Origin: Chitinophaga agri
GTDB taxonomy: Bacteria > Bacteroidota > Bacteroidia > Chitinophagales > Chitinophagaceae
Direction of reading: 5' to 3'
NCBI RefSeq assembly: GCF_010093065.1
Contig: NZ_CP048113.1
Location: forward strand, 7,768,001 to 7,832,000
Length of the DNA: 64,000 nucleotides
The position numbers were made by a program, and so were the translations under genes. The notes beneath the pieces are model-generated. The model searched no databases. It was not told the origin of the DNA and saw nothing but the letters and a program-made list of their open reading frames with translations. This document shows, piece after piece, positions 19,573 to 32,377 of this stretch. Each line of letters opens with the position of its first letter. The stretch's first letter is position 1.

Positions 19573-20199
19573 TTATAGCCACGTGTGCAGCCAATAGTGA
19601 ATCAGCGGTTTGGTAACAGCACGCTGGTACAGGTTCCGTGCTTCCTGATAGTCGAATTCAAACATATCTTTCACTACCACGACCTGTTGTCTGGTCTGGC
19701 TTTTTTTCATCGTCTCCTTCATTCTGAAGGGGCCTGTATACTGTGGCGTCTTCGGAAGCTGCTGTGTATGGAAAACACTGATGATATCATCTACCAGGGC
19801 TTTCAGATAAGGCTCTCCCTGCTCAGCTGCAAAGCATTCAGCAGCATATGTATCATTTACCGGGTCTACCAGTAAATACCCATGGGGCATTCCACTGATG
19901 AGATGATGATAATCTGCTGAGCTGACGAGTTCCACATCCCAGTCCACATAGTAACCGGAGTAGTGGTAAACGATCAGATACCTCGCAATATCTGATGCTT
20001 CTGCAAAGTTCCTTGCCTGCAGGAACGGAGCGAGTGCCAGCGGGTAATGTGTAGCAATAAAATCCCGGGTGGTAAGATAGTCCCATTGCTTTATCCCGAA
20101 ACCGTAGTGCTTCATTTTGTTCCAGGAAGTCACGCATCTCCAGATCGTGGAGTTAGTGATATCAGTTAACAGAACCTGATGAATAACAGGTGCCACCAT
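19573..20199 (-). CDS. DXD glycosyltransferase (Gly_transf_sug / OCH1-like)
   Basis: A 208-residue glycosyltransferase. The conserved block EASDIARYLIVYHYSGYYVDWDVE places the DXD metal/nucleotide-sugar motif at Asp86 and Asp88. This is the hallmark of the sugar-binding-region DXD family, which includes capsular and OCH1-type transferases. It is short, close to the minimal catalytic domain. As the last gene of the RiPP cluster, 19 bp after the beta-barrel gene, it may glycosylate the peptide or an attached sugar. That role rests on context only. Confidence 0.8.
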   Translation of the reverse strand: MVAPVIHQVLLTDITNSTIWRCVTSWNKMKHYGFGIKQWDYLTTRDFIATHYPLALAPFLQARNFAEASDIARYLIVYHYSGYYVDWDVELVSSADYHHLISGMPHGYLLVDPVNDTYAAECFAAEQGEPYLKALVDDIISVFHTQQLPKTPQYTGPFRMKETMKKSQTRQQVVVVKDMFEFDYQEARNLYQRAVTKPLIHYWLHTWL

Positions 20200-20218
20200 T
20201 GTAAACTATTTATGATGC

Positions 20219-22609
20219 TCAATACGCCCTTTGCTTTTCCTTCTCATTCATGAAGTTCCTTTGTCTGGGCGAAACTTTCGTACTGCCGAATCTGTAAGAT
20301 AAGGTCACTCTCAGGTTCCTGGTATCGTAGTAATTATCATAATGCTGCTGCACACCATTGACAACGGCATGAAGCTTTGCCTGGGTGGTCTTCAGTATAT
20401 CGCTTGCCAGTATTGCAGCATCCCACTTGTTACTGATTTTGTACCTGACAGCCACATTCACGTTATATCTTGGCGTTCTGCGAAATATGCCGGTGATCTG
20501 TGGTGAATAGTAGAAGAACGATAGCTGTGAACTGATCTTTTTACTGATCTTAAACGTATTATCCATGCTGAAATAGGCCACATAAACTTCATAGTTAGGT
20601 ACGATAGATGTGTCTCGCTGCCTGATATTTCTGTGATAGCCAGTAACGATAAAATTAGATTCGAGCCAGCTTACCTTACGGAAGGTATACACAGCAGTCA
20701 GGCCCACCGTGGATGTGTTGTAGAAATTCTGCATGGTATCTACCACTATCTTCGAGTTCTCATATGGTATCGCTGTCTGCGCTATCTGATCGTTACCAAA
20801 GTTTGTATATAGGGATAAATTCAGATTATTGTTATTGGAGTAGTTCAGCTCCAGATTGTGTGAAAAGGAAGGTAACAGATAAGGATTGCCTACAGCGTAA
20901 TAATACTGTGTGATATATCTTTCAAAAGGATTCAGACTGAGATAAGCTGGCCGGTCTATCCTGCGTCCATACCCGATTGAAAATATATGCTGGTCATTCA
21001 GTCTGTAAGATGAGTAAAAGGTCGGGAAAAGCTTCAGGTAGTCGTTCTTATAGGTACTTTCCAGTGTGTTGGAGATACCTTTGGTATGGGTGTTTTCTAT
21101 TCGCAGCCCACCTTTAAGCTCAAATTTTTCGCCCAGGGCCCGGCTTACCGAAACGAACACGGCGCCTGTATTCTCGGTGAATTCAAAGCTGTCTTTGTAG
21201 TCAAACAAGGTATCCGTTTTTGCGGCTACAGCTGCTGCGGATAGTTCATTCCTGTTATGCGAACTGGAATAACTTACACCATAATTCACTTCAAACTGTT
21301 GTATCTTATGTTCAACGTCGATGTTCAGTGATGTATTTCTGAACTGATTATCGCCTATATTCCGGGAGAACCATTCCCTGCCGCTCATGGGTAGTTCATC
21401 CGGACCATAGGTGCCTGAATTGAAATCCCTGAAGTTATTATTGTGGCTCCGGTAATAGTCCAGGTCTACGACAATGCGCTGACCATCCTTTCCGAGGGAA
21501 TAGGTTGAATTGAGGTTCAATGCCAGATTTTCTGTTTCAGCATGCTGGTGCCCGCTTCCGATAAGAGAGGAGTCTATATGTCCGCTTGTTTTTCCTTCTA
21601 TTCTTGTGGAAGTCTGATCATTGGCATGTGGACGGCTGTTATTGTAGAAGGCCTGTGCGCCAATGGTAAGCTTATCCGACATAGTATAGTCAGCCTGCAG
21701 CCTTGCATTATATAGTTTCGTATAATTTCTTCTGTTACTTTTGCTTTCCCAGTTTTGTGTGGCATAGAGGATCCGTGGTCGTTCTATGGAAGCACTTGAA
21801 CCTTCGGTCATGCTGGCATTTGTGGAAAGGGACAGTTTTCTTTTCTGATAGTTAAAGCCAAGGCCCAGGTTCCCGGTTGCATAAGTTGCCTGTGTATATA
21901 CTGACCTTATCGAAGCGCTCCAGTAGTCGTTGACCACCTTTTTCAGCTTTATATTCAGTAAGCCCGAATTGCCTTCCGCACTGTATTTGGAGGGCGGCAT
22001 TGTGATCACCTCTATACTTTCTATGTTGCCGGATGGAATACTTCTGAGGTAGGCAGCCAGGTCCTCACCGGATATCCGCAGCATCTTGTCGTTGACCATG
22101 ACCGAAACGCTCCCCTTGCCGATTATACCCAGTGCGCCGTTCTCTGCCATCACCATTGGCGTTACTTTCAGTACGTCCAGCGCATCACCACTTAAGGATG
22201 CCATACTATTATTTACATTGAAGACCAACCTGTCCACCTTACGTTCTATCAGGGGCTTTCTGCTATTGATTTCCACCTGTTTTAGTTCGGTCACGCTATG
22301 ACGCATGGTGATAACCAGTTCGCCTGCACTACCGGCACCCAGTGTCGTGTCAACGCTTTCAAAGCCGGTAAAGCTGCATTGCAGGCGGTACGTCGTGTTT
22401 GCTGGCAGGTCCCTGAATGCAAACACACCATTCTGATCTGACAAGGTATACTGCAACATCGCTGAGTCCCGGAATAGCTTAACAGTGACATATTCGAGCG
22501 GGCTATTTTCAGGGGTAACGATGCGCCCCTGAATACTTTGAGCGAGCAGGGAATCCGCCTGGAAAAGCAACAACAGCATGATAACAGAAACGTTTGCTAA
22601 AGTCTTCAT
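20219..22609 (-). CDS. Outer-membrane beta-barrel protein (TonB-receptor-like) of the RiPP cluster
   Basis: A 796-residue outer-membrane protein. A signal peptide ends near LLAQS, then comes a carboxypeptidase-regulatory domain (IQGRIVTPENSPLEYVTVKL). A degenerate plug (DALDVLKVTPMV; IRISGEDLAAYLRSIPSGNIESIEVITMPPSKYSAEG) and a barrel of the OMP_b-brl_3 type follow. It is much smaller than SusC and has no SusD partner. Its place behind the exporter and maturases suggests that it moves the finished peptide across the outer membrane, or takes it back up. Inference from context. Confidence 0.85.
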   Translation of the reverse strand: MKTLANVSVIMLLLLFQADSLLAQSIQGRIVTPENSPLEYVTVKLFRDSAMLQYTLSDQNGVFAFRDLPANTTYRLQCSFTGFESVDTTLGAGSAGELVITMRHSVTELKQVEINSRKPLIERKVDRLVFNVNNSMASLSGDALDVLKVTPMVMAENGALGIIGKGSVSVMVNDKMLRISGEDLAAYLRSIPSGNIESIEVITMPPSKYSAEGNSGLLNIKLKKVVNDYWSASIRSVYTQATYATGNLGLGFNYQKRKLSLSTNASMTEGSSASIERPRILYATQNWESKSNRRNYTKLYNARLQADYTMSDKLTIGAQAFYNNSRPHANDQTSTRIEGKTSGHIDSSLIGSGHQHAETENLALNLNSTYSLGKDGQRIVVDLDYYRSHNNNFRDFNSGTYGPDELPMSGREWFSRNIGDNQFRNTSLNIDVEHKIQQFEVNYGVSYSSSHNRNELSAAAVAAKTDTLFDYKDSFEFTENTGAVFVSVSRALGEKFELKGGLRIENTHTKGISNTLESTYKNDYLKLFPTFYSSYRLNDQHIFSIGYGRRIDRPAYLSLNPFERYITQYYYAVGNPYLLPSFSHNLELNYSNNNNLNLSLYTNFGNDQIAQTAIPYENSKIVVDTMQNFYNTSTVGLTAVYTFRKVSWLESNFIVTGYHRNIRQRDTSIVPNYEVYVAYFSMDNTFKISKKISSQLSFFYYSPQITGIFRRTPRYNVNVAVRYKISNKWDAAILASDILKTTQAKLHAVVNGVQQHYDNYYDTRNLRVTLSYRFGSTKVSPRQRNFMNEKEKQRAY

Positions 22610-22653
22610 AACAGGATATAGTAATTGTAGGGTTTTTCTTCGCTAGACAATTA

Positions 22654-22677
22654 TACTATTTTGAATATAAAGTAGTA
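22654..22677. promoter_or_regulatory. Operator-like dyad TACTATTTT-n6-AAAGTAGTA
   Basis: Nine-base arms match at eight positions and lie 45-68 bp upstream of the beta-barrel gene. The outer ACTAT/AGTA halves resemble the dyad at 18313-18329. It suggests a separate control point inside the cluster. Confidence 0.35.
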
Positions 22678-22706
22678 AAAAAATCTGATTCGGACATAAA
22701 AACCTA

Positions 22707-23027
22707 TCATATACCCTTTCTGTACTTTGCCAGTTCTTTCTCTTTATGTGTGGAAATGACACTATCTGAAGTGATGTAGGCGGAGCAGGCAAGCATGTAG
22801 CCTTCATTCAGTTCAGTTTCACTTAGTACGGTTTGTGGCGTGTGTCGTACGGAGCCTGAGGAAAGCTTGCATACACAGCTGGAGCAATCGCCTGTGCGAC
22901 AAAGGAACGGTAGTGTAACATCCGCATCTGCTGCGGCATTCAGAATAGATGTTCCATCGGCTACGTCAATCGTCAGATTGAGCCCCTTTTTATCATTGAC
23001 GAGCGTTAACTTATAAACTGTTGACAT
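22707..23027 (-). CDS. Plant-type [2Fe-2S] ferredoxin
   Basis: A 106-residue soluble electron carrier. Cys43, Cys48, Cys51 and Cys81 follow the C-x4-C-x2-C...C pattern (FLCRTGDCSSCVCK, YMLACSAY), as in chloroplast-type ferredoxins and reductase domains. In this cluster, 27 bp after the GlcNAc-transferase gene, it is well placed to donate electrons to the two radical SAM enzymes, whose [4Fe-4S] cluster must be reduced to cleave SAM. No ferredoxin reductase is encoded nearby. Confidence 0.9.
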   Translation of the reverse strand: MSTVYKLTLVNDKKGLNLTIDVADGTSILNAAADADVTLPFLCRTGDCSSCVCKLSSGSVRHTPQTVLSETELNEGYMLACSAYITSDSVISTHKEKELAKYRKGI

Positions 23028-23054
23028 GTTATAAAGCGGTTTAAGCGATTATGT

Positions 23055-24356
23055 TTATAGTACATGACATTTTTTAATGGCGAAGTTACCCAGACCGGCT
23101 ACAAAGTAAGGCATCCGGCCCCTGACCTTCCTGTTCCATCCGCCGGATGCGGAATGTAAAGACAGGCACCATGTGTCAGGCAGATGGCTGCAGGAAAAAC
23201 TAATGTCGAGCATGCAGTCGTCGGTCTGGGAATGTAGCATGCCGGCAATGTCATTTGCATCCAGGGACCTTTGATATACTTCCTGTTGATTGGCCACAAA
23301 TGTGATGGTGGCAGCATCATAATCATCTTTGACGAAAACGCGGCGGGGAATGCGCAGTACATTGTTGACACAGCAACAGAAACTTTCCTGCCATTCTTCC
23401 TGCGTATGGTATACCTGCGGATTGGGTGGAGGTAAGTGCTTCAGTGTATATTGCTGTACCTGTTTTTTGCACAGTAATATCCCGGCATAATGTTCATAGT
23501 CGCTCAGGGACCGTACGTTGCCGAGACCATATACACCCCAGTCATAATAGGATGATTGTTCCCCGCTTTCAAAGAATTTCCTTAACCTGTCCATGGCATG
23601 AATTTCAACGGCCTCGGTAGCCGCATGATCCTCCCAGTGCTTAGGGCTTTCCCGTCTCGAATAGTAGTGCCAGGTGATATTGAGATGTGGATGGAACAGG
23701 TCATACCCATGTGTATAGGCACGGACGGCCAGGTTAATTTCTTCTCCCATGAAATATAAGTGCGGGTCGTCGAGTATCTCCTGACAGAAGGCGCCAATCG
23801 AAAAGGTGAAGCCGCCGGCAAGGAAGCGTGCCGGCACAGGACCAGTAAGTGTTTCCCAGTCAGGGATCTGGGCTGGCCAGCCGATAGGAAAGACGCCGCT
23901 CCTGTCGAATTCCCGGAAAATGATCTGGTTTGGCGGTACATCTTCGTACTCAAAGCCGGCCGGATCAAAGTGAGGCGGATAAGTAGTCAGCACCGGTTTG
24001 GGATAACCCTGCTGCTGCAGGGACAACAGCATGTCTATCAATACCGTGTCCCAGTTCCGGATGAACCGCATATGAGAGTCAACCTGTAACGTGTATTCCT
24101 CTCCTTTATACTGCTGTTGTATAAGGTTCCTGGCCCAGCAAAGTCCGCCAGACTCATTGTAGGGGACATCGATGATATTGAACCGGCTGTCTGCGCGGTA
24201 CACGTCCAGTTCAGCATTAAAAACATCATCGGGGTGGTACTGATGACAGATCGTTATGCGCAGATTATCGGGCCGACCGGCTTTTTCCAGCAGGTCCCGA
24301 AGAGTGGAACCGAGCAGGAAATCCCTGTAAGCCGCGATTTGAACAAATATTAGCAT
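23055..24356 (-). CDS. GlcNAc-transferase of the Skp1-hydroxyproline type (PF11397-like)
   Basis: A 433-residue cytosolic glycosyltransferase. Marks of the family are the N-terminal MLIFVQIAAYRD and the ESGGLCWARNLIQQQYKGEEY segment. The metal-binding DSH triplet is Asp93-Ser94-His95 in QVDSHMRF, and the acceptor region includes GEEINLAVRAYTHGYD with a following HYYSR. The founding member adds GlcNAc to hydroxyproline of Skp1 in Dictyostelium. The neighbouring precursor core contains Pro-Pro plus many Ser, Thr and Tyr. The likely role here is glycosylation of that peptide; sugar and acceptor residue are not known. Confidence 0.82.
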   Translation of the reverse strand: MLIFVQIAAYRDFLLGSTLRDLLEKAGRPDNLRITICHQYHPDDVFNAELDVYRADSRFNIIDVPYNESGGLCWARNLIQQQYKGEEYTLQVDSHMRFIRNWDTVLIDMLLSLQQQGYPKPVLTTYPPHFDPAGFEYEDVPPNQIIFREFDRSGVFPIGWPAQIPDWETLTGPVPARFLAGGFTFSIGAFCQEILDDPHLYFMGEEINLAVRAYTHGYDLFHPHLNITWHYYSRRESPKHWEDHAATEAVEIHAMDRLRKFFESGEQSSYYDWGVYGLGNVRSLSDYEHYAGILLCKKQVQQYTLKHLPPPNPQVYHTQEEWQESFCCCVNNVLRIPRRVFVKDDYDAATITFVANQQEVYQRSLDANDIAGMLHSQTDDCMLDISFSCSHLPDTWCLSLHSASGGWNRKVRGRMPYFVAGLGNFAIKKCHVL

Positions 24357-24395
24357 TTTTATCCTTTTCTATGGTAAACAGCTCATTTCTCTGTC

Positions 24396-25697
24396 TTACG
24401 CTTCAATGATCAATTCATTCATACGCGTTTTCTGGTTCAGGTAGCTTAATATCAGCCGGTCCTCCATGTTATATTTAAAGGCAGGACATCCGCTTTGACC
24501 TTCCGCCCATTTTAAGCGGCAGCCACCACCGCAGACGGGCAGGAGATTACAGGTGTAACAGTCGGTATCGCCATTTTTTATTTCATGGACCCAGTTCCGG
24601 AATTGCGTATCGTGGGAGCGGAAAGGCTGACCTTCCAGCAGGTTACCCAACGTATTTGCACCTATGATAGCCGCAGTTGCAGCCGGCAGTGCGTTGCAGG
24701 AAAACAGATTACCCTGGAGGTCAACGGCAGCAGCTCCCTTGTCCACCGCTGCACAGGCTGTGAAAGTCCGGGCAGGTAGGATGCCCAGTATGAATCCCTG
24801 CTGAATAGCATAAAGCACGTATTCGATCTCGTACTCCGCTAACAGCGCTGCATCGGTCTGTCCATCTTCTGTCATCCCAAAGTGGAAGGTGACACGGTTT
24901 TGGGCATGGGCAGCAGCCAGTTTGTCGATGATATCTACCACCGCTTCCTGGCTGAATGTGTTAATATTGATCCGTATTTCGAAGATGATCCCCTCCTGTG
25001 GGAGGAATGGAAAACTGTTCAGAATATCCACGATGTTGGCGATCACCAGATGAGCGTTGGATGGCTGATCGTTTCCGCCGCCGTCCAGTGCTACATGATA
25101 GTTTTTGATGTTACAGCGGTAGAATAGTGTCTCAAATATCTCTTTGTGAAGGGAGGCGCCGTCACAGATCATAGCAGCGGTATACAGAACGGCGTAGCGG
25201 TCGGCCAGCATGCGGTTTAAGTCGGATAAATGAGCGATTGCCGGCAGATCCCTGGCGGGATCGCCCACATTCCAGATCACATTAAAAGCTTTGTATTTTT
25301 TAGAACGGAGCTGATTTTCGGTATAATGGGCCAATGCTTCCCTGACCGGGTCGCCCATCGATTCATTTCCCTGCTTTGGTGTACAGGAGGAACAACCGGA
25401 CCGGCATGCCGCTGAAGTATTTATAAACAGGGAAAAGTTATCATGATACAGATCATTCCCGTCTAATATAGCTGCGAGTTCATCCCGTTCCGGCGGTACA
25501 AGTATGCTGACATGCTCCAGTTCTTTTCTGATGCCGTTATCCACCCGGTCAATGCAGCCATTCACCAGGTGGTGGAAAATGGATTCGCTCACCACAACGG
25601 TAACATTACTGATACATGAATAAATAATCCTTTGCGCGTCTGCACCTTCTTCACCATCATTCAGTGAGGTGCTGATGATATATTTTGAGAGCTTCAT
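24396..25697 (-). CDS. Radical SAM/SPASM protein, second paralogue with degenerate GGEP motif
   Basis: A 433-residue protein related to the maturase at 29480-30850 along its length, with similar N-termini (KLSKYI) and SPASM ends. The SAM-cluster cysteines are kept as C-x3-C-x2-C (Cys98, Cys102, Cys105), but the aromatic residue before the third Cys is Ser. The GGEP motif that binds the SAM amino group reads VGDP at 144-147. All seven SPASM cysteines remain: 315, 334, 380, 383, 389, 393 and 404. It may be a weakly active or specialised maturase, or a non-catalytic partner like the pseudo-rSAM proteins of GG-Bacteroidales systems. Its start overlaps the HlyD-like gene by ATGA. Confidence 0.85.
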   Translation of the reverse strand: MKLSKYIISTSLNDGEEGADAQRIIYSCISNVTVVVSESIFHHLVNGCIDRVDNGIRKELEHVSILVPPERDELAAILDGNDLYHDNFSLFINTSAACRSGCSSCTPKQGNESMGDPVREALAHYTENQLRSKKYKAFNVIWNVGDPARDLPAIAHLSDLNRMLADRYAVLYTAAMICDGASLHKEIFETLFYRCNIKNYHVALDGGGNDQPSNAHLVIANIVDILNSFPFLPQEGIIFEIRININTFSQEAVVDIIDKLAAAHAQNRVTFHFGMTEDGQTDAALLAEYEIEYVLYAIQQGFILGILPARTFTACAAVDKGAAAVDLQGNLFSCNALPAATAAIIGANTLGNLLEGQPFRSHDTQFRNWVHEIKNGDTDCYTCNLLPVCGGGCRLKWAEGQSGCPAFKYNMEDRLILSYLNQKTRMNELIIEA

Positions 25698-26206
25698 CGT
25701 TTGATCAGTTTTCTAAACATGGATACGAATACCTTTTCTTTAGCTGTTGTGACGTCGATGCTTACCTGCATTCCTTCCGAAGGATGTAACAGCCTGTTGT
25801 TGTGCAGGCGCAGATCTTCGCCGCTACCGGCTACCTTCAGCGACAGAAGCGTGGCGTTACCGGCAGTCCATAGAGAGTCGATGGTCGCCGCTAGTGATCC
25901 GGCGCTGACAGCGTTGTTTCCCAGGATAGTCACAGATGCCTGGTTACCACGCTGCAGGCTATGTTGCGGCGTTATATTCAGGGAGAATACCAGTAGCTGA
26001 CTATCGTGTTGAGACCGCCGGGATACAAATGCTGCCAGCAGCTGCTCCTTTGTTTGTAACTGGATCCTGTTCATTAGGATCAACGCTGCGGCGATGATCA
26101 GCACAATGAGGGTATTGCCCCAGTTCACAATGAAATGGGGAGGTTTGTTCATTACTTCCTGAACTTCATGACTCCTGACTTCGTACTTTGTTTTCAGTTC
26201 TGACAC
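25694..26206 (-). CDS. Short HlyD-like membrane-fusion adaptor
   Basis: A single-pass inner-membrane protein with a transmembrane segment NTLIVLIIAAALILMNRI preceded by YEVRSHEVQEVMNKPP. That prelude is typical of HlyD-type adaptors beside C39 exporters in this phylum. At about 170 residues it is far shorter than usual (over 400): the long periplasmic coiled coil is missing and only a barrel-like part (GNQASVTILGN) remains. The best start is GTG at 26204-26206, 10 bp after the exporter stop; an ATG at 26254 would overlap the exporter by 38 bp. It should link the ABC exporter to the envelope. Confidence 0.72.
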   Translation of the reverse strand: MSELKTKYEVRSHEVQEVMNKPPHFIVNWGNTLIVLIIAAALILMNRIQLQTKEQLLAAFVSRRSQHDSQLLVFSLNITPQHSLQRGNQASVTILGNNAVSAGSLAATIDSLWTAGNATLLSLKVAGSGEDLRLHNNRLLHPSEGMQVSIDVTTAKEKVFVSMFRKLIKR

Positions 26207-26216
26207 GATAAATATT

Positions 26217-28439
26217 TTAATCTCCCAATTCGAGTTGATTCCGTACCAGCTCAAAATATTTGCCCTTCGCCTTTGTCAGTGTTTCGTGATTCCCTATTTC
26301 GGCTATTTCACCTTTATCCAGCACTACGATCTGATCGGCCTGCTTTACTGTACTTAGGCGATGCGCGATAATGACCACGGTTTTATTTTTGAAAAACGCA
26401 TGCAGGTGGTCCATGATGACCTTTTCATTATTTGCATCCAGGCTGCTGGTGGCCTCATCAAAGAAGAGGTAATCAGGATTTTTATACACAGCGCGTGCTA
26501 TCAGGATACGCTGTCGTTGTCCGCCACTGATACCCACCCCGGACAATCCGATCTTGGTAGTATATCCGGAAGGCGTACTTTCGATGAAATCTTTCAGATT
26601 GGATACCCTTACAGCCAGTTCCATTTTAGTTTCGTCTATCTCATTTCCATCCAGGGCAATGTTCTTGGCGATGGTATCGTGAAAGATATAGCCGTCCTGC
26701 ATTACGGTGCCGCATTGTCCGCGCCACATTCGTGGAGAAAGCTCCGCCAGGTCCTTACTACCCACTGATATATTTCCGGTGACCGGCTGATAGAAATTCA
26801 GCAGTAATTTCATCAGGGTCGTTTTCCCGCTGCCACTGGTGCCAACAATGGCAGTCACCTTCGCTTTCGGTATACAGAGATTGATGTTTTTCAGTACAAA
26901 AGGGGAATTAGGTCCTTCGTACTGGAATGAGAGGTTGCGAAGGTGCAGGTCTTCCTGCAACATGTACGCGCCGTTTTTCTTGTCTTTGACAATGTCTTCC
27001 TCATCCTGTTTGCTGTGTATTTCCTGCAGCCTGCCCATGCTGAGCTTCGCATCCTGGGCGGCCCGAATGAGGCTTACCAGCTGTTCGATCGGTGAGGTGG
27101 TTTGTCCGATGATGTAGGATATACTGAGTAACTGGCCGATAGTCATATTGCCTTTTATCGCCTCGCTGGCTGCAAAGAAGGAGATGAGTATATTTTTCAG
27201 GTGCATGACGAAGGCCATCCCCGTTCGCTGATACTGTTCGAGCGCCAGGCTCTTTATATTCAGTTTAAAGTCTTTTACCTGCAGTTGTTCCCATTCCCAG
27301 CGTTTGGGTGTTTCGCTGCCATAGAGTTTTATTTCCTGCATACCAGTGATCATCTCATACAGTTTGTCCTGGTTTTCCCGGCTGCGGGCGAACCGCTTAT
27401 AATCCATGTCCCTTCTTTTTTTCTGAAACAACAATATCCACAGGATACCGGCCATACTGAAGGAAAGGAACAGCAGGAGGATCTTAAGATCATAGATCGC
27501 CAGCACGACTGTGAACACAATAATGTTGATGAGCGAAAACAGTGATGTCAGGACGTTCCCTGTGAGGAAGTTTTCGATGCGATGGTGGTCGTTGATACGC
27601 TGTGCAATATCACCGACGGCCTTTGAATCGAAATACCTGATTGGCAGCTTTAGCAGTTTGACGAGGAAATCGGAAATAATGCTAAGACTGATGCGGGTGT
27701 TAATGTGTAGTAGCAGCCATGAACGGACCAGCTCTATACCAATGTTTCCCATAGACAGGAAAAGCTGTGACAGCAGTACGATATATATCACCGATATGTT
27801 TTTCTCAGCGACACCCTGGTCGATGAGGATCTGCGAAGCAAAGGGAAGAAGCAGTGAAATAAAGCTGGCGGCCATCATACCCAGTACCAGCTGGGCAATA
27901 TGCCGCCTGAAGGGCGTAAGGTAACGCAGCAGGAATCCATACCCTTCCTTATTTTCACTGACTGCTTCACGGGAATAGAAGTTAGGGGTGGGCTCCAGTA
28001 ACAGGGCCAATCCTCTTTCATTGTAGGTGGACACCCAGCCTTTGTAAAAAGTATCATGGTCGATCTTCACAATGCCATGTGCAGGATCCGCGATCACGAA
28101 TTCATCGGTTGTCGCATTTTTCCGTAGCTGGCTGATAATAGAATTCCCTTTCGGTTTCACATCTGACAAGACAACGAAATGATCATGGTTCCAGTGAAGG
28201 ATGCAGGGGAGTGGACAATCGGACACGAGTTTCTTATAGCTGAGCTTTACCATCAGCGTTCTAAAACCCAGTTTTTCTGCCGCATCATTTATACTGAGCA
28301 GGCTTACACCGTCTTTCCCCAGATAGCATATCTCACGCAGGTACTCCAGGGAATAACTTTTGCCATAGTAGTCCGCCACCATTTTCAGGCAGGCAGGTGC
28401 ACAGTCCATTATATCATGCTGCATCGAAAATTTAAACAT
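26217..28439 (-). CDS. Peptidase-containing ABC exporter (C39 bacteriocin-type)
   Basis: A 740-residue inner-membrane protein that should cut the leader after Gly-Gly and export the core. The N-terminal C39 peptidase has Cys13 in MQHDIMDCAPACL, His87 in HWNHDHFVVL and Asp118 in IADPAHG. A six-helix ABC membrane domain follows (about 165-460). The nucleotide-binding domain has Walker A GTSGSGKTTL from 533, signature SGGQ at 638-641, Walker B YLFFDE ending at 662 and His693 in IIAHRLS. It starts 6 bp after the helical protein. The precursor's double-glycine leader fits this peptidase. Confidence 0.95.
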   Translation of the reverse strand: MFKFSMQHDIMDCAPACLKMVADYYGKSYSLEYLREICYLGKDGVSLLSINDAAEKLGFRTLMVKLSYKKLVSDCPLPCILHWNHDHFVVLSDVKPKGNSIISQLRKNATTDEFVIADPAHGIVKIDHDTFYKGWVSTYNERGLALLLEPTPNFYSREAVSENKEGYGFLLRYLTPFRRHIAQLVLGMMAASFISLLLPFASQILIDQGVAEKNISVIYIVLLSQLFLSMGNIGIELVRSWLLLHINTRISLSIISDFLVKLLKLPIRYFDSKAVGDIAQRINDHHRIENFLTGNVLTSLFSLINIIVFTVVLAIYDLKILLLFLSFSMAGILWILLFQKKRRDMDYKRFARSRENQDKLYEMITGMQEIKLYGSETPKRWEWEQLQVKDFKLNIKSLALEQYQRTGMAFVMHLKNILISFFAASEAIKGNMTIGQLLSISYIIGQTTSPIEQLVSLIRAAQDAKLSMGRLQEIHSKQDEEDIVKDKKNGAYMLQEDLHLRNLSFQYEGPNSPFVLKNINLCIPKAKVTAIVGTSGSGKTTLMKLLLNFYQPVTGNISVGSKDLAELSPRMWRGQCGTVMQDGYIFHDTIAKNIALDGNEIDETKMELAVRVSNLKDFIESTPSGYTTKIGLSGVGISGGQRQRILIARAVYKNPDYLFFDEATSSLDANNEKVIMDHLHAFFKNKTVVIIAHRLSTVKQADQIVVLDKGEIAEIGNHETLTKAKGKYFELVRNQLELGD

Positions 28440-28445
28440 ATAGTA

Positions 28446-29474
28446 CTATATTATTGCAGATAACGGCCTTAAGGCATCGATCTGTGCAACTGATAGCTTC
28501 AGTGCTTTTTCCTGATATATTCTGATATTATCTTTTAGTGATGCCGATAGCAGATCACCGGCATTTTGATGGTTGAGTAAAGCCGACAGTACAAAATATT
28601 GAAGAGATGCCGGGACTTCTTCATGGAATATGTTGGCATTAATGGCCATGTCCAGTCCTTCTTCTTCTTTCCCTTCAGATATCAGCAGGAAAATTTCCAG
28701 TGCCTTCACCGTATCAGGTGCTATTAGCTCGTTATAGGCGATGTCCATATTCGCGAAGACGGACAGCAGGAAAGGATGCTGAAAGAAACTACCACTTTCG
28801 GGATTGGCCAGCGCTTTAAAGATAAGTCCGTTGAAGAACAGGTCCAGGATGGAACGGAGCTGGTTTTGTGAAGCCAGCACGTCAGAGAACGGGAACTCGA
28901 AAGTTTCTTTCGCGTTACTCAGCAAATAGCGCATTACTTCCCGTCCATAGCGGGCTGACTCGTCGTATCTGCCGGCATTGAAATACACGCGGGAGGTGTT
29001 CAGATATTGTTCGATCTTCATAAACATGCCGTCGCGGAAACCGTGACCGATGAGAAAATCTATATTGTCCAGTAATACCAGCATGTATTTCTCCGCATTG
29101 TCATAATCATGCCGGAGATAGTAATGGTAGTAGGCCATTACGGGATTGAATATGCTTTGCAGGGAATGATATTCCAGCGCAAGGTCTTGATTCAGCCGGT
29201 TATATTGTTCCCCGATCTTATCAACGAAATAGGTAGCCACATTGTGTTCTTTTGCCCTGCATACCCTTAGCAGCTTCTGGCTGATGCAGTAGCAGTAGGT
29301 ATAGTGTTCCCTTTCCGGCAATTCTTTGATAACATATTCGAGGAGTGCATAGAATATGTGCCCATTGTCGAAGTTATTACTTTTGGAAGCAACCTGGCCC
29401 GGAGGCTCTTTTTCCGGCGCAGGGGCATAGTCTTCGAAAAGTTGCAGATAGTCTACGATTCTGGATGCGTTCAT
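28446..29474 (-). CDS. Unrecognised helical (TPR-like) protein of the RiPP cluster
   Basis: A 342-residue cytosolic protein, almost entirely alpha-helical by composition, with repeated helix pairs (NAEKYMLVLLDNIDFLI; TSRVYFNAGRYDESARYGREVM). No signal peptide, membrane helix, cysteine cluster or catalytic motif was found. It lies 5 bp after the first radical SAM gene and 6 bp before the exporter, so it is tightly coupled to both. A role as scaffold, leader-binding or substrate-delivery protein is conceivable, but nothing in the sequence proves it. Confidence 0.75.
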   Translation of the reverse strand: MNASRIVDYLQLFEDYAPAPEKEPPGQVASKSNNFDNGHIFYALLEYVIKELPEREHYTYCYCISQKLLRVCRAKEHNVATYFVDKIGEQYNRLNQDLALEYHSLQSIFNPVMAYYHYYLRHDYDNAEKYMLVLLDNIDFLIGHGFRDGMFMKIEQYLNTSRVYFNAGRYDESARYGREVMRYLLSNAKETFEFPFSDVLASQNQLRSILDLFFNGLIFKALANPESGSFFQHPFLLSVFANMDIAYNELIAPDTVKALEIFLLISEGKEEEGLDMAINANIFHEEVPASLQYFVLSALLNHQNAGDLLSASLKDNIRIYQEKALKLSVAQIDALRPLSAII

Positions 29475-29479
29475 AGTTG

Positions 29480-30850
29480 TTACATTAAAGTTGTCAACGT
29501 TGACTTGTCCATTAAATATTGCAATACCAACTTATCTTCTATATTAGCCTTAATAGTAGGGCAGGTTACTTCGCCATTGTACCAGTCCTTGGGACATCCG
29601 CCGTTACACACGGGGAACAGGTTGCATTTGGAGCATTTCGGAGAGACGTTACAGGCGGCAAGATCATCATACCAGCCGCGCACCTGTGTTTTGTCGTTGT
29701 AGGTGGATGTATCTTCCAGCAGGTTCCCGATGATGTATTTCTCATCGTTATATTTCGGCGTATAGGGGAATTCGTAACAAGGCGTGATGTTGCCGGTTGC
29801 ATCGTATACTTCGCTGGCTTCGTTGACGACCATGCATACATCATAGTTTCTAAGGGGCAGGATATATTCCATGGGAAATCCCTGTTCCTGCAGGTACATC
29901 AGCCATTCTATTTCGAGTTCGGCAAATTCGTTGGTGGTGAGTCCCTGTTCGTCACCTGCTGTTTTGTCGCCCCAGTTGGTAATTGGAGAAAAGCCCAGTT
30001 CTACTTTTTCCCGCAGACCTAATGAAACGATGTAATCTATAAACTCGGTTACGTGCTGATAGTTGGATTCGTCGATATTCATGCGTATGAAGATCGGCCG
30101 TTGTACAATTTGCTGATAGTGTTCGAGTGAACAGATCTCCACGATATTCTTCATGATAATGTCGAAGGTCGATTCACCTTTTTTGGTGATACGCCGTTTA
30201 TCATGGTGTTCTTTCATGGTATCTACGGTGATCTGAAACCTGTTTATTTTGTGATGCAGATACAGTTCAGTGAAAATATCTTTTTTCAGGCTCAGTCCAT
30301 TGGTGATCATGGAGGCACTATACCGGATGCCGCGGTCTTTTGCGATCTCCTGCATCCTGTTACTGAGGTTGATGATAGCGCTGTAACCCATTAAAGGCTC
30401 TCCACCGTACCAGGTGGTGTGTATGAGTTCAGCATCGTCCTTTCGGTCTAATTGCCAGAGCAGGCGCTGTAGGATTTTTTCCTGGATATCGGCACCCATA
30501 GTTTGCTTGGAATGGACCTGACCACAATAGAAGCATCCCAGCTGGCAGTTGGCGGTGGGCTGGATGGTTAAAGAGATACATTTTGTATCCTTGACACCAA
30601 GTTTATTCAGCTTCAGGATCTCCTGAAATTCGTCTTCGTGGCTATTGACGATGATCTCATAATCCATAAACCTGGACAGCAGGTTATTTCCCAGTCCCAT
30701 AAAGTCACCGTTCAGCAGTTGCTGATAGACGCTGTCTTCGATCACGGCGGATATCCCGCTTCTCGTAGAGAAAAGTATGCGTTGGAGGGGGACACTGTTG
30801 GGGTCCAACACATCGGTTATCACTATGTATTTTGATAATTTGAACATCAT
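29480..30850 (-). CDS. Radical SAM/SPASM peptide maturase
   Basis: A 456-residue enzyme expected to modify the precursor through SAM-derived radicals. Counting from the ATG at 30848-30850, the [4Fe-4S] motif C-x3-C-x2-C is Cys102, Cys106 and Cys109 (NCQLGCFYCGQ), and GGEP is at 149-152 (TWYGGEPLMG). The C-terminal SPASM domain is complete: GNITPC, then CSKCNLFPVCNGGC and a last Cys, binding two auxiliary clusters. N-terminal residues 1-90 may bind the leader. A longer frame adds 30 residues without resemblance. Reactions in this family include thioether, C-C or C-O cross-links and epimerisation; I cannot say which applies. It follows the precursor gene. Confidence 0.93.
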   Translation of the reverse strand: MMFKLSKYIVITDVLDPNSVPLQRILFSTRSGISAVIEDSVYQQLLNGDFMGLGNNLLSRFMDYEIIVNSHEDEFQEILKLNKLGVKDTKCISLTIQPTANCQLGCFYCGQVHSKQTMGADIQEKILQRLLWQLDRKDDAELIHTTWYGGEPLMGYSAIINLSNRMQEIAKDRGIRYSASMITNGLSLKKDIFTELYLHHKINRFQITVDTMKEHHDKRRITKKGESTFDIIMKNIVEICSLEHYQQIVQRPIFIRMNIDESNYQHVTEFIDYIVSLGLREKVELGFSPITNWGDKTAGDEQGLTTNEFAELEIEWLMYLQEQGFPMEYILPLRNYDVCMVVNEASEVYDATGNITPCYEFPYTPKYNDEKYIIGNLLEDTSTYNDKTQVRGWYDDLAACNVSPKCSKCNLFPVCNGGCPKDWYNGEVTCPTIKANIEDKLVLQYLMDKSTLTTLM

Positions 30851-30946
30851 GATGGTAGGGTTTGTTGTTATCCCATGCAGCGATACTTGTACCTGATTGC
30901 AGAGGAACCAGCGTAAAAGGGGAGCGTCAAATCGGCCCATAAAAAG

Positions 30947-31008
30947 CCATTAACAACATGTAGGTTTCCACCCACATGCTGTTAATGGACAAGACGTAAT
31001 CTGTCTTG
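30947..31008 (-). terminator. Hairpin pair after the precursor gene (attenuator-like)
   Basis: On the minus strand a 15-bp stem (arms 30974-30988 and 30947-30961, CCATTAACAGCATGT with ACATGTTGTTAATGG, one G-U pair) is followed by CTTTTTATGG. A smaller CAAGAC/GTCTTG hairpin (30990-31008) lies between it and the precursor stop. This looks like a leaky terminator that lets the peptide gene be transcribed more than the maturase and export genes. Confidence 0.65.
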
Positions 31009-31028
31009 CGGTGGGCATAGTTATAGCA

Positions 31029-31247
31029 TCAGGTATAGCTGCTACCGCCGTCACAGGTACAATCAGGTGGTTTTGTACTATAGGTTGAACCGTTGTTGCA
31101 GGTACAACCGGCGAGATTGCCTCCACGGGTAGAAGATGCCTCGTCGAGGTTCATTACTTCAAATCCATCCTCTAAACCGCCTTCTTTTTTGGCTTCGCTG
31201 AATTTTTGCAGCGCCAGTTGCAAGCGTTTTGACTTCATTGAAAACAC
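31029..31247 (-). CDS. RiPP precursor peptide with double-glycine leader
   Basis: A 72-residue peptide. The leader (1-43) is helical and charged (LQLALQKFSEAKKEGG) and ends DEASSTRGG. Gly42-Gly43 is the expected cut site for the C39 exporter. The 29-residue core (44-72) has four cysteines in two near-copies of one motif: CTCNNGSTY (48-56) and CTCDGGSSY (63-71), separated by STKPPD. Cys, Thr, Ser, Tyr and Pro in the core are candidate sites for cross-linking or glycosylation. It is first in the maturase-exporter operon. The ATG at 31238 would shorten the leader by three residues. It resembles GG-leader natural product precursors known beside radical SAM genes. Confidence 0.88.
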   Translation of the reverse strand: MFSMKSKRLQLALQKFSEAKKEGGLEDGFEVMNLDEASSTRGGNLAGCTCNNGSTYSTKPPDCTCDGGSSYT

Positions 31248-31600
31248 ATTTTGTTTTGAGAAATCTGCTAAAGTTTTACATTATTAAGCATGCGTTGAAT
31301 GGCATAATTGCTCTTATGCAAAGTTTCAATTACAGATGGCCACTATATGAAAGACGTATAGATAGTTTCCCTCAATTTCATTCAGGCTGAAGAAAAGATT
31401 AATAAAGCCTGCCATTGCGGGATGTTTCTATTCTGGTGATTGTAACAATAAAGAATAAACGATTTAGTCTGCAAATCCGGGTTAAGACTGGCAATAGAGA
31501 TCCATTCGCGTCACAGCTGTGTCCGCGTGAGGGCCTGCAGGAGATAGTCAGCGCTATGACAAAGTCCGTACAGATATTCAATAAACCAGTTAACTAGAAA
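31248..31600. other. Upstream region of the RiPP operon
   Basis: About 350 bp, A+T-rich, between the precursor start and the end of the GT2 gene. On the minus strand AAACTTTG (complement of CAAAGTTT near 31320) is one mismatch from a TAnnTTTG element and would give a leader of about 65 bases. No second precursor-like small gene or other feature was found on either strand. Confidence 0.4.
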
Positions 31601-32377
31601 TCAAAACATTCGTTTCAGAGACGGGCGGTTTCGGATATCATGCAAAGCCTCCAGTTGCAGTTTCCTGCCACTGTCTGTAGCATGGTCGTTATCCGGATGG
31701 AGCCTGTAACAGTAAACGATATTAGGAACAGAGACAATGTTCTCATAGCCGGCCACTTCCATCAATGGCAACATCAGCGCCTGGTCGTAAGTGGACATGT
31801 AGAACCTGTCATCATTATATACGCCATTACTATACCTGAAATTATCTACATTAGGATCCTGTTGCAAAAAAGCCTTGAAGAGTTTATACTTAAAGGTTTT
31901 CAGATGAGATGCTTTCCAACTTGCCTTTCTCAGATTTTCAAACTCCGCTGTTGTGTAGGGTGGACATGGATCAAGAAATCCATAGTTAGTGATATATTGC
32001 CCATAGGTGAGCAATGTATTGTCATTATATTTACTGTTTACGATCTGTAGGGCAAATTCTCCGAAGAGATAGTCGTCACCATCCAGTATTACAACTATAT
32101 CATCGTCATCAAGTGTCAGTTTGACGAGTGCCCGGTATATATTTTCGAGTGAGCCAAGCCGCTCTTTATTTCTTATGAAATGGAAATTTTCAAGGTCTTC
32201 ATCTATTAAATCAAGGGTGCCATCGTCTGAAGCATCATCCAGCAAATAAACTACGTAGTTTCTGTATTCCTGTCCCAGCAAAGAGCTCACACAGTCGATA
32301 ATATAATTACCGGCGTTCCTGAAGGGAACAAGCACCACCATTTTGTGAAATGTCTTTGGGTTATCTGGTATTAACAT
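31601..32377 (-). CDS. Family 2 (GT-A) glycosyltransferase
   Basis: A 258-residue glycosyltransferase with the GT2 nucleotide-sugar-binding start (MVVLVPFRNAGNYIIDCVSSLLGQ) and LLDDASDDGT. The metal motif is DGDD at 99-102. The acceptor region includes YMSTYDQALMLPLMEVAG, and the protein ends in a Tyr/His-rich segment (YCYRLHPDN). It lies on the same strand as the RiPP operon, upstream of the precursor, and is the third glycosyltransferase in the area. It may act on the peptide or its glycan. The 353-bp gap means it could also be independent. Confidence 0.88.
   Translation of the reverse strand: MLIPDNPKTFHKMVVLVPFRNAGNYIIDCVSSLLGQEYRNYVVYLLDDASDDGTLDLIDEDLENFHFIRNKERLGSLENIYRALVKLTLDDDDIVVILDGDDYLFGEFALQIVNSKYNDNTLLTYGQYITNYGFLDPCPPYTTAEFENLRKASWKASHLKTFKYKLFKAFLQQDPNVDNFRYSNGVYNDDRFYMSTYDQALMLPLMEVAGYENIVSVPNIVYCYRLHPDNDHATDSGRKLQLEALHDIRNRPSLKRMF

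Follow-up and report, generated by a model that had tools for sequence, protein, structure and literature searches.

The subject of this analysis is a gene cluster on the minus strand of a 64,000-nucleotide stretch of the Chitinophaga agri genome (contig NZ_CP048113.1, positions 7,768,001 to 7,832,000; "the window" means this whole stretch). The cluster appears to encode a ribosomally synthesised and post-translationally modified peptide (RiPP), radical S-adenosylmethionine (rSAM) and glycosyltransferase proteins that would modify it, and proteins that would export it. An earlier note on this DNA had described a run of ten minus-strand genes lying mostly a short distance apart, and all ten open reading frames (ORFs) are present in the ORF list of the window at 19573-31247, in the order first noted. 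That gene list overlooked a GT2-family glycosyltransferase gene upstream of the precursor, with which the cluster counts eleven genes. Intergenic gaps measure -4 to 39 nt, except between the ferredoxin and the outer-membrane barrel (97 nt), the precursor and rSAM1 (178 nt) and the GT2 gene and the precursor (362 nt). The gene starts were partly revised: the precursor begins at ATG 31238 (69 aa), which matches the start of homologous proteins, and not at GTG 31247; rSAM1 begins at ATG 30850 and not at 30940; and the HlyD-like gene begins at GTG 26206. The features of the locus, in the direction of transcription, are as follows.

31601..32377, minus strand: GT2-family glycosyltransferase (PF00535, 59.9 bits), first gene of the cluster
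31337..31342, minus strand: TGGCCA box, 17 nt upstream of the RNA element
31264..31319, minus strand: two-hairpin RNA element, with covariation (80.4 bits to model R1, whose training set includes the window sequence)
31029..31238, minus strand: precursor peptide, 69 aa, GG-type leader, core NLAGCTCNNGSTYSTKPPDCTCDGGSSYT, with homologues in four other clusters
30947..30988, minus strand: 19-bp hairpin and T run, terminator-like, between precursor and rSAM1
29480..30850, minus strand: rSAM1, radical SAM/SPASM peptide maturase with CX3CX2C and GGEP intact (PF04055, SPASM TIGR04085)
28446..29474, minus strand: all-helical protein resembling tetratricopeptide repeats (TPR-like; AlphaFold, weak Foldseek matches), probable peptide-binding accessory
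26217..28439, minus strand: C39 peptidase/ATP-binding cassette (ABC) exporter (PF03412, PF00664, PF00005)
25694..26206, minus strand: short HlyD-like membrane protein (structure model, sister-locus alignment)
24396..25697, minus strand: rSAM2, degenerating pseudo-radical-SAM/SPASM protein by its sequence (VGDP in place of GGEP; SPASM kept)
23055..24356, minus strand: PF11397 (Skp1-type N-acetylglucosamine-transferase) glycosyltransferase (220.8 bits)
22707..23027, minus strand: [2Fe-2S] plant-type ferredoxin (TIGR02008, 92.6 bits)
20219..22609, minus strand: PF14905 outer-membrane barrel (273.3 bits) with a carboxypeptidase-regulatory-like N-terminal domain
19573..20199, minus strand: PF04488 DXD glycosyltransferase (32.7 bits), last gene

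The precursor, for which no Pfam or NCBIfam match was found, is 57-87% identical to the precursors of four other clusters, all of 69 or 71 aa. Two CTCxxGSxY repeats are present in the core of all five, and the four cysteines of these repeats, together with their Ser, Thr, Tyr and Asn residues, are plausible targets for cross-linking and glycosylation. A TRGG or ARGG cleavage site occurs in the precursors of all five clusters, beside an exporter with a C39 peptidase domain (PF03412, 104.4 bits in the window).

The cluster occurs once in its own genome (7.97 Mb, one contig) and was found in two genera of different families, Chitinophaga and Sphingobacterium (Sphingobacteriaceae). All eleven genes are present in the same order in the window, in C. 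fulva G-6-1-13 (genome G043, locus L023) and in Sphingobacterium genomes G658 and G760 (L066 and L067). C. oryziterrae JCM 16595 (G012, L024) has eight of them (barrel, precursor, rSAM1, helical protein, exporter, HlyD-like protein, rSAM2 and PF11397), with the barrel on the other side of the locus. The precursor was found in 3 of 79 Chitinophaga genomes, and a PF11397 protein (E up to 1e-10) in the same three; rSAM2 relatives of at least 40% identity were likewise confined to these three among the 60 genus members included in a search of 99 genomes. A precursor search of 399 Sphingobacteriaceae genomes gave two strong matches, G658 and G760. Two weak precursor matches, G606 (Sphingobacteriaceae, E 0.004) and G395 (phylum search, E 0.007), were dropped, as no cluster gene was found in the stretches surrounding them. 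PF11397 was absent from all five named genomes of other genera that carry an rSAM1-type cluster, and a plasmid search returned 106 records, all below 60% identity (33.7% at best among the matches listed). The scan of named genomes comprised 17 loci, with ten distant rSAM proteins (at most 28% identity, L048-L057) left out. The genome search that the earlier note had proposed, for the precursor beside both SPASM proteins and a PF11397-like transferase, thus found five clusters, and the precursor was present in 5/5 clusters that have rSAM2 and PF11397, where the note had named its absence as evidence against the proposal.

We estimated selection by the Nei-Gojobori method in two pairs, the window with C. 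fulva and the two Sphingobacterium genomes with each other. The ratio of nonsynonymous to synonymous substitution rates (dN/dS) was 0.04-0.24 wherever dS was unsaturated, and ten of the eleven genes were measurable; dS was saturated for the GT2, rSAM1, ferredoxin and DXD transferase genes in the first pair and for the DXD transferase gene in the second. Because many dS values exceeded 1, these ratios are rough. The values for the precursor, 0.11 (window and C. fulva) and 0.07 (Sphingobacterium), indicate a real gene, and those for the C39 exporter were 0.05 and 0.04 and for rSAM1 0.05 (one pair). Given the same gene order in three other genomes, eight genes in a fourth and low dN/dS, the cluster is not a chance assembly. 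The GG-leader precursor, dedicated SPASM maturase, C39 exporter, barrel and glycosyltransferases form one conserved unit, as had been proposed.

In each of the eight genes that they share, the window copy resembles its Sphingobacterium counterparts more than that of C. oryziterrae. Window rSAM1 is 80% identical to its Sphingobacterium counterparts and 65% identical to that of C. oryziterrae, and the corresponding values for the precursor are 78% and 76% versus 57%. The rSAM1 tree agrees with this closeness, and the block has therefore moved between genera.

rSAM1 is, by its sequence, a radical SAM/SPASM maturase with intact motifs: it matches PF04055 (37.6 bits) and the SPASM domain model TIGR04085 (42.9 bits, cut-off 27), and CQLGCFYC and WYGGEP are present in the rSAM1 of 5/5 clusters. 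Its best maturase family is TIGR04463 (214.7 bits), which is also the best NCBIfam profile for rSAM2 (98.1 bits). As the cut-off is 525, both proteins are related to these radical SAM/SPASM RiPP maturases and are not members. The match of rSAM1 to the PapB profile was 99.7 bits (cut-off 340). The closest solved structure is PDB 5wgg (E 4.3e-10), a SCIFF/ranthipeptide maturase that we take to be CteB; the present system differs from it in having a core with four cysteines in two CTC pairs.

The earlier note had implied two working radical SAM maturases, and for the second this was not supported. In the window rSAM2, GGEP is replaced by VGDP, the SPASM match is retained (TIGR04085, 38.7 bits) and a Pfam search gave no PF04055 match. 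rSAM2 and its relatives (the copies of the five clusters plus P0007, P0008 and P0009) form one clade of 8 in the tree, with support 100/100 and a stem of 1.17 changes per column. The motif W(Y/F)G(G/A)EP is present in all 24 other family members in the tree versus 0/8 rSAM2 proteins. CX3CX2C is kept in 4/8 (the window, C. fulva and the two Sphingobacterium copies), has its third cysteine shifted by one in C. oryziterrae and P0007, and is missing as a whole stretch from P0008 and P0009; it is kept in 23 of the 24 other members, P0012 having an insertion within the motif. The N-terminal K/LLS(K/R)Y region of the clade is kept, as are the C-terminal SPASM cysteines except in P0008 and P0009, which lose part of that region. 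A dN/dS value for both proteins was obtained in one pair only, where it was nearly 4 times higher for rSAM2 (0.187) than for rSAM1 (0.049); the rSAM2 values in the two pairs were 0.16 and 0.19. On motif loss, a normal maturase was rejected as the main reading of rSAM2, and from these sequence features it is a degenerating pseudo-enzyme, or a pseudo-enzyme in the making. A supposed absence of rSAM2 from Sphingobacterium was also rejected: it is present there at 43% and 42% identity and had been missed by a word-based search. In P0008 (343 aa) and P0009 (365 aa), the radical SAM motif stretch and part of SPASM are deleted with shared borders and open frames.

Profile searches placed rSAM2 in no pseudo-rSAM family, among 16 NCBIfam matches of the window copy (E up to 1) or among those of the L024, L066, P0007 and P0008 copies (E up to 0.001), although the presence in the library of the model for IPR026418 (presumably TIGR04150) is unconfirmed. 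rSAM2 adjoins PF11397 in 5/5 clusters, and its clade was not seen in the other 19 rSAM1-type loci compared, apart from an unplaced 20% match in L035. On this basis it is a fair guess that rSAM2 serves as an adaptor for the PF11397 transferase, while the shared descent of the five clusters would suffice to explain the pairing. The L035 locus (L035:3359-10446) has an rSAM1-like gene near a helical protein and this 20%-identity rSAM2-like protein, for which NCBIfam gave no match at E up to 0.001.

The three glycosyltransferases belong to three families (PF00535, PF11397 and PF04488). The GT2 protein is 82% identical to its counterpart at the same place in L023, and 71% and 70% identical to those in L066 and L067; since it is conserved at its place in three other genomes, we count it as part of the cluster, though with 362 nt between it and the precursor it may have its own transcript. 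The PF11397 match greatly exceeds the gathering cut-off (21 bits), and D(S/A)HMRF is kept in the PF11397 protein of 5/5 clusters. The PF04488 transferase is 74%, 61% and 60% identical in L023, L066 and L067. The ferredoxin match is above its cut-off of 81.15. The domain names first given stood for the rSAM/SPASM, C39, PF11397, ferredoxin, barrel and DXD proteins, and the "helical protein" was borne out by AlphaFold, which models it as an all-helical TPR-like solenoid (predicted local distance difference test, pLDDT, 84.3). Its Foldseek matches, to kinesin light chain TPRs and the peptide-binding proteins Rap and NprR, are weak (best E 0.038, none at 0.001). For the "HlyD-like" name no convincing family match was found; the protein can be aligned with short proteins that occupy the corresponding position in eight sister loci, and its model (pLDDT 71.6) shows a single membrane helix plus a beta domain, the coiled coil being absent. 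Lacking a coiled coil, it could hardly reach a TolC-type channel alone, and judging from this model the adjoining barrel may take the part of that channel.

The stretch upstream of the precursor ATG is far more conserved than nearly saturated synonymous sites in all five clusters. It contains an element made of a hairpin (P1), a CRTTCAA linker and a second hairpin (P2) with a 17-nt loop, which in the window reads UAAUAAUGUAAAACUUU. The element lies 25 nt before the precursor ATG in the window and 23-31 nt before it in 13 loci, a position just outside the footprint of an initiating ribosome. Model R1 was built from six sequences, all from rSAM clusters, and was searched against the 79 genus genomes; genome searches used the stricter filters of Infernal, which lose weak matches. 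R1 gave 8 matches at E up to 0.02, each of them (8/8) shortly before a RiPP precursor: four belonged to the training set, two (L026 and L027) were in known rSAM clusters outside it and had already been spotted by eye before the search, and two preceded mersacidin-type precursors of LanM clusters with LanM over cut-off (L086:4377-4713 and L087:13024-13368). Three of 8 weaker matches were checked (L088, L089 and L090), none with a precursor. For G013, the third genome with LanM over cut-off, a one-strand filter found no precursor, which counts neither for nor against the association.

Model R2, built from ten sequences that included the two LanM ones, returned the same 8 matches in the genus genomes at E <1e-8, the 9 others having E values of at least 0.1. 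Across 379 genomes of the Mucilaginibacter family it gave three matches at E up to 0.001, namely the two Sphingobacterium clusters (training set) and a new one, G875, before the precursor of an rSAM1/C39/barrel cluster. Among 8 further matches at E 0.006-0.05, two (L102/L125 and L108/L126) lay before precursors in such clusters and six did not. R2 thereby added three rSAM clusters, of which one matched at E 1.3e-6 and two lay among noise-level matches. Across the phylum (395 genomes), R2 matched the window alone at E up to 0.01, and one sequence without a precursor at 0.04. R2 matches L091-L093, L101, L103-L107 and L109-L111, as well as L123, were discarded as noise with no RiPP precursor. When 24 RiPP loci (L142 uncounted) were scanned with R2, 10 had no match at E up to 1 (L025, L028, L029, L031, L032, L033, L044, L045, L046 and L047), so the element is common, not universal. 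L025 has the P2 hairpin alone, L043 matches R2 only at E 0.1, and L034, L035, L037 and L038, scanned with R1 only, gave nothing better than E 0.5.

In the ten-sequence alignment, 97.8% of 90 cells pair and 7 of 9 pairs have changed on both sides, compared with 17-38% pairing for a slid partner, figures favoured by an alignment that was fitted to the model. P2 was also compared in 16 gapless sequences, seven of which are in no model and all of which were hand-picked for showing the hairpin: here 98.4% of 64 cells pair and covariation is 0.979 versus at most 0.25 for slid pairs, with 2/5 measures (both-side changes and further pair types) no better than shuffles. This set leaves out L067 (letters identical to L066), L025 (loop one base longer) and the loci without the hairpin (L028, L029, L031-L033, L038 and the later precursors of L025 and L126). 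In L125 and L043 a P2 hairpin precedes the second tandem precursor as well. In L126 (12431-13467), four tandem GG precursors lie in one rSAM1 cluster, with a P2 hairpin before the first only. An Rfam 15 scan of the window at gathering thresholds yielded one tRNA only, and a scan of 31200-31480 at E up to 10, covering the window copy of the element, yielded only a 13.8-bit Phe_leader on the other strand; a literature search on RNA elements of RiPP genes returned nothing on the point. That the element keeps a steady position before the ATG, and accompanies radical SAM as well as LanM precursors, suggests a shared factor controlling translation or stability.

Two further features flank the precursor. 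The gap between precursor and rSAM1 contains the 19-bp hairpin followed by a T run (30988-30947), which has the longest stem of the terminator-like sites in 1 kb (3 found versus 0.9 expected). Each of the five clusters has a strong hairpin between these two genes (z -3.3 to -5.6, 60 shuffles each), the T run having been checked in the window. It is possible, judging from the sequence, that this hairpin is an attenuator giving more precursor than enzyme. Upstream of the element, TGGCCA occurs within 80 nt in 7/10 other loci, both LanM loci included, and was not found in that interval in L066, L067 and L124.

An rSAM1-like maturase, a C39 exporter and a barrel of the PF14905 type also come together in sister clusters of Chitinophaga, Mucilaginibacter, Flavobacterium, Empedobacter and Chryseobacterium, and exporter and barrel are both present in 15/19 other rSAM1-type loci. 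Loci L026-L030 of Chitinophaga carry a galactosyltransferase-like and a LanC-like protein, with a Core-2/I-branching-like protein also in L027-L030, and are further candidates for glycosylated rSAM peptides; Pfam matches are direct for L026, L030 and the L027 galactosyltransferase-like protein, the remaining assignments being by similarity to L030. The RNA model also found a Sphingobacteriaceae rSAM1/helical/C39/barrel cluster (L124:4690-9623) whose core is a Cys/Trp/Gly repeat, CGTWGGACTTWGGSCGTWG.

The cluster shares features with several known systems. Known glycocins have two disulfides and a single GT2 glycosyltransferase, and are not known to involve a radical SAM maturase. Unlike these, the present cluster has an intact rSAM1 and three transferases of three families. 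A glycosyltransferase beside a small exported peptide is common to both (PMC9576775, in the part of that paper used here). The Chitinophaga class II lanthipeptide clusters L086 and L087 share the 5' RNA element and its distance from the precursor, but differ in their LanM chemistry and mersacidin-type leader. RiPP clusters of Bacteroidales, in the portion of PMC10352776 considered here, combine rSAM, pseudo-rSAM, LanC-like, glycosyltransferase, C39 exporter and TPR proteins in varying sets, and that paper offers the hypothesis that pseudo-rSAMs work in partnership with an rSAM. Its biosynthetic gene clusters BGC1-BGC9 resemble the present one in their rSAM/SPASM maturase, GG-leader precursors, C39 exporter (there termed PCAT, a peptidase-containing ABC transporter) and outer-membrane protein; BGC2 and BGC9 also have a TPR-like protein, BGC3-5 pseudo-rSAMs, and BGC3 and BGC9 glycosyltransferases. 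In contrast to the present cluster, BGC3-5 pair with LanC-like proteins, BGC3 and BGC5 are without a C39 exporter, and the BGC3-5 pseudo-rSAM is IPR026418, whereas no pseudo-rSAM family appeared among the rSAM2 matches; PF11397 and ferredoxin, both present here, are unmentioned for BGC1-BGC9 in section 3.2 of that paper. The suggestion of "possibly a new class" was therefore too strong, as such clusters are in print (PMC10352776) and other Chitinophaga rSAM clusters carry different glycosyltransferases. The kind of cluster is known; its most novel parts are the pairing of a pseudo-rSAM with PF11397 and the RNA element, neither of which the earlier note had described as such. In the open-access literature we found no described product with this gene set, and in the parts of PMC10352776 and PMC9576775 that bear on it neither this gene combination nor PF11397 within it; a search on FlmE/OhkG returned nothing on the point.

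We consider it likely that the locus is a mobile biosynthetic cluster for a radical-SAM-modified, glycosylated and exported RiPP. Gene content, conservation, selection, linkage, loss of rSAM2 motifs and covariation of the 5' element were established directly, and we infer a cross-link, a sugar and secretion for the product. The precursor mRNA would carry the structured 5' element, and the terminator-like hairpin after the precursor would let it be expressed above the enzymes. rSAM1 would bind the leader and, as its family implies, use iron-sulfur clusters to cross-link the cysteines of the two CTCxxGSxY repeats, with electrons that the ferredoxin may supply. rSAM2 would be a non-catalytic partner, most simply a leader-binding adaptor presenting the peptide to rSAM1 or to the PF11397 transferase. 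That transferase would place the first sugar on Ser, Thr, Tyr or Asn in the repeats, and the GT2 and DXD transferases would extend or diversify it; this order is proposed because PF11397 alone of the three was found in the C. oryziterrae locus. The C39 exporter would then cut after GG and export the peptide together with the short HlyD-like protein, and at the outer membrane the PF14905 barrel would serve as its export channel or its receptor.

Several observations weigh against this proposal and feed the alternatives to it. A search of the 19 kb of the C. oryziterrae locus found no ferredoxin, GT2 or DXD transferase, so these are not essential parts. Among the 25 NCBIfam families shown for rSAM1, the SPASM domain model alone passes its cut-off, and since no maturase family does so, the type of bond cannot be read from the family. 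No gene was recognised as an immunity gene. CX3CX2C is still present in the window rSAM2, so weak activity is possible, and with three relatives that also retain this motif and the SPASM cysteines, and with sactipeptide systems that use two rSAM proteins on record (PMC12093266 and PMC8188230, in the parts used here), two active maturases working in turn, each making its own cross-link as first implied and as reported for thuricin CD and ruminococcin C, might be considered. This is nevertheless decidedly unlikely, given the loss of GGEP from all eight relatives, the lost or shifted CX3CX2C in half of them, the missing PF04055 match of the window copy and the raised dN/dS of rSAM2. The PF11397 and other two transferases could also act on something other than the peptide. 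Were their target a cell-surface glycan or the outer-membrane barrel, the peptide would be only cross-linked; Bacteroidota carry many surface-glycan glycosyltransferases, and the GT2 gene stands 362 nt from the precursor. We regard this as improbable, as the PF11397 gene was found in the genus only in the same 3/79 genomes as this precursor type and the block that holds all three transferases moves as a unit.

A role as a signal or surface-bound factor, in place of an antimicrobial one, is a real possibility for the peptide, if somewhat short of an even one. The lack of a recognised immunity gene, the dedicated barrel near the precursor in 15/19 other rSAM1-type loci and the weak resemblance of the helical protein to the peptide-binding TPR sensors Rap and NprR favour a signal; the Foldseek matches are weak, and nothing in the data separates the two functions. 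With regard to the 5' element, a DNA site (promoter or transcription-factor operator) with no RNA structure is unlikely. The TGGCCA box, itself a palindrome, stands just upstream in the window and in 7/10 other loci, which favours such a site; however, an operator would be expected to keep its letters, whereas the arms of P2 vary freely yet stay complementary, the spacing to the ATG is held at 23-31 nt, and P2 recurs before the second tandem precursor in two loci. An RNA structure is thus the reading that we prefer for the element. We give roughly even credence to the broader idea that it represents a new cis-acting RNA family, with two hairpins and a conserved 17-nt loop, that marks RiPP precursors in Chitinophaga and Sphingobacteriaceae whatever the modifying enzyme, coupling unrelated peptides to a common regulator (an RNA-binding regulator, a small RNA or translational control), here in company with a retired rSAM kept as an adaptor for PF11397.

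If the proposed pathway is true, the product would be a peptide that carries radical cross-links and has undergone as many as three kinds of sugar transfer. The pseudo-rSAM copies form a natural series, from a nearly intact to a deleted active site, through which the role of pseudo-rSAM partners could be tested. The RNA element would give a handle on how RiPP genes are switched in Bacteroidota and a way to find precursors that does not depend on their chemistry: R1 had only rSAM clusters in its training set and pointed to the precursors of two LanM lanthipeptide clusters.

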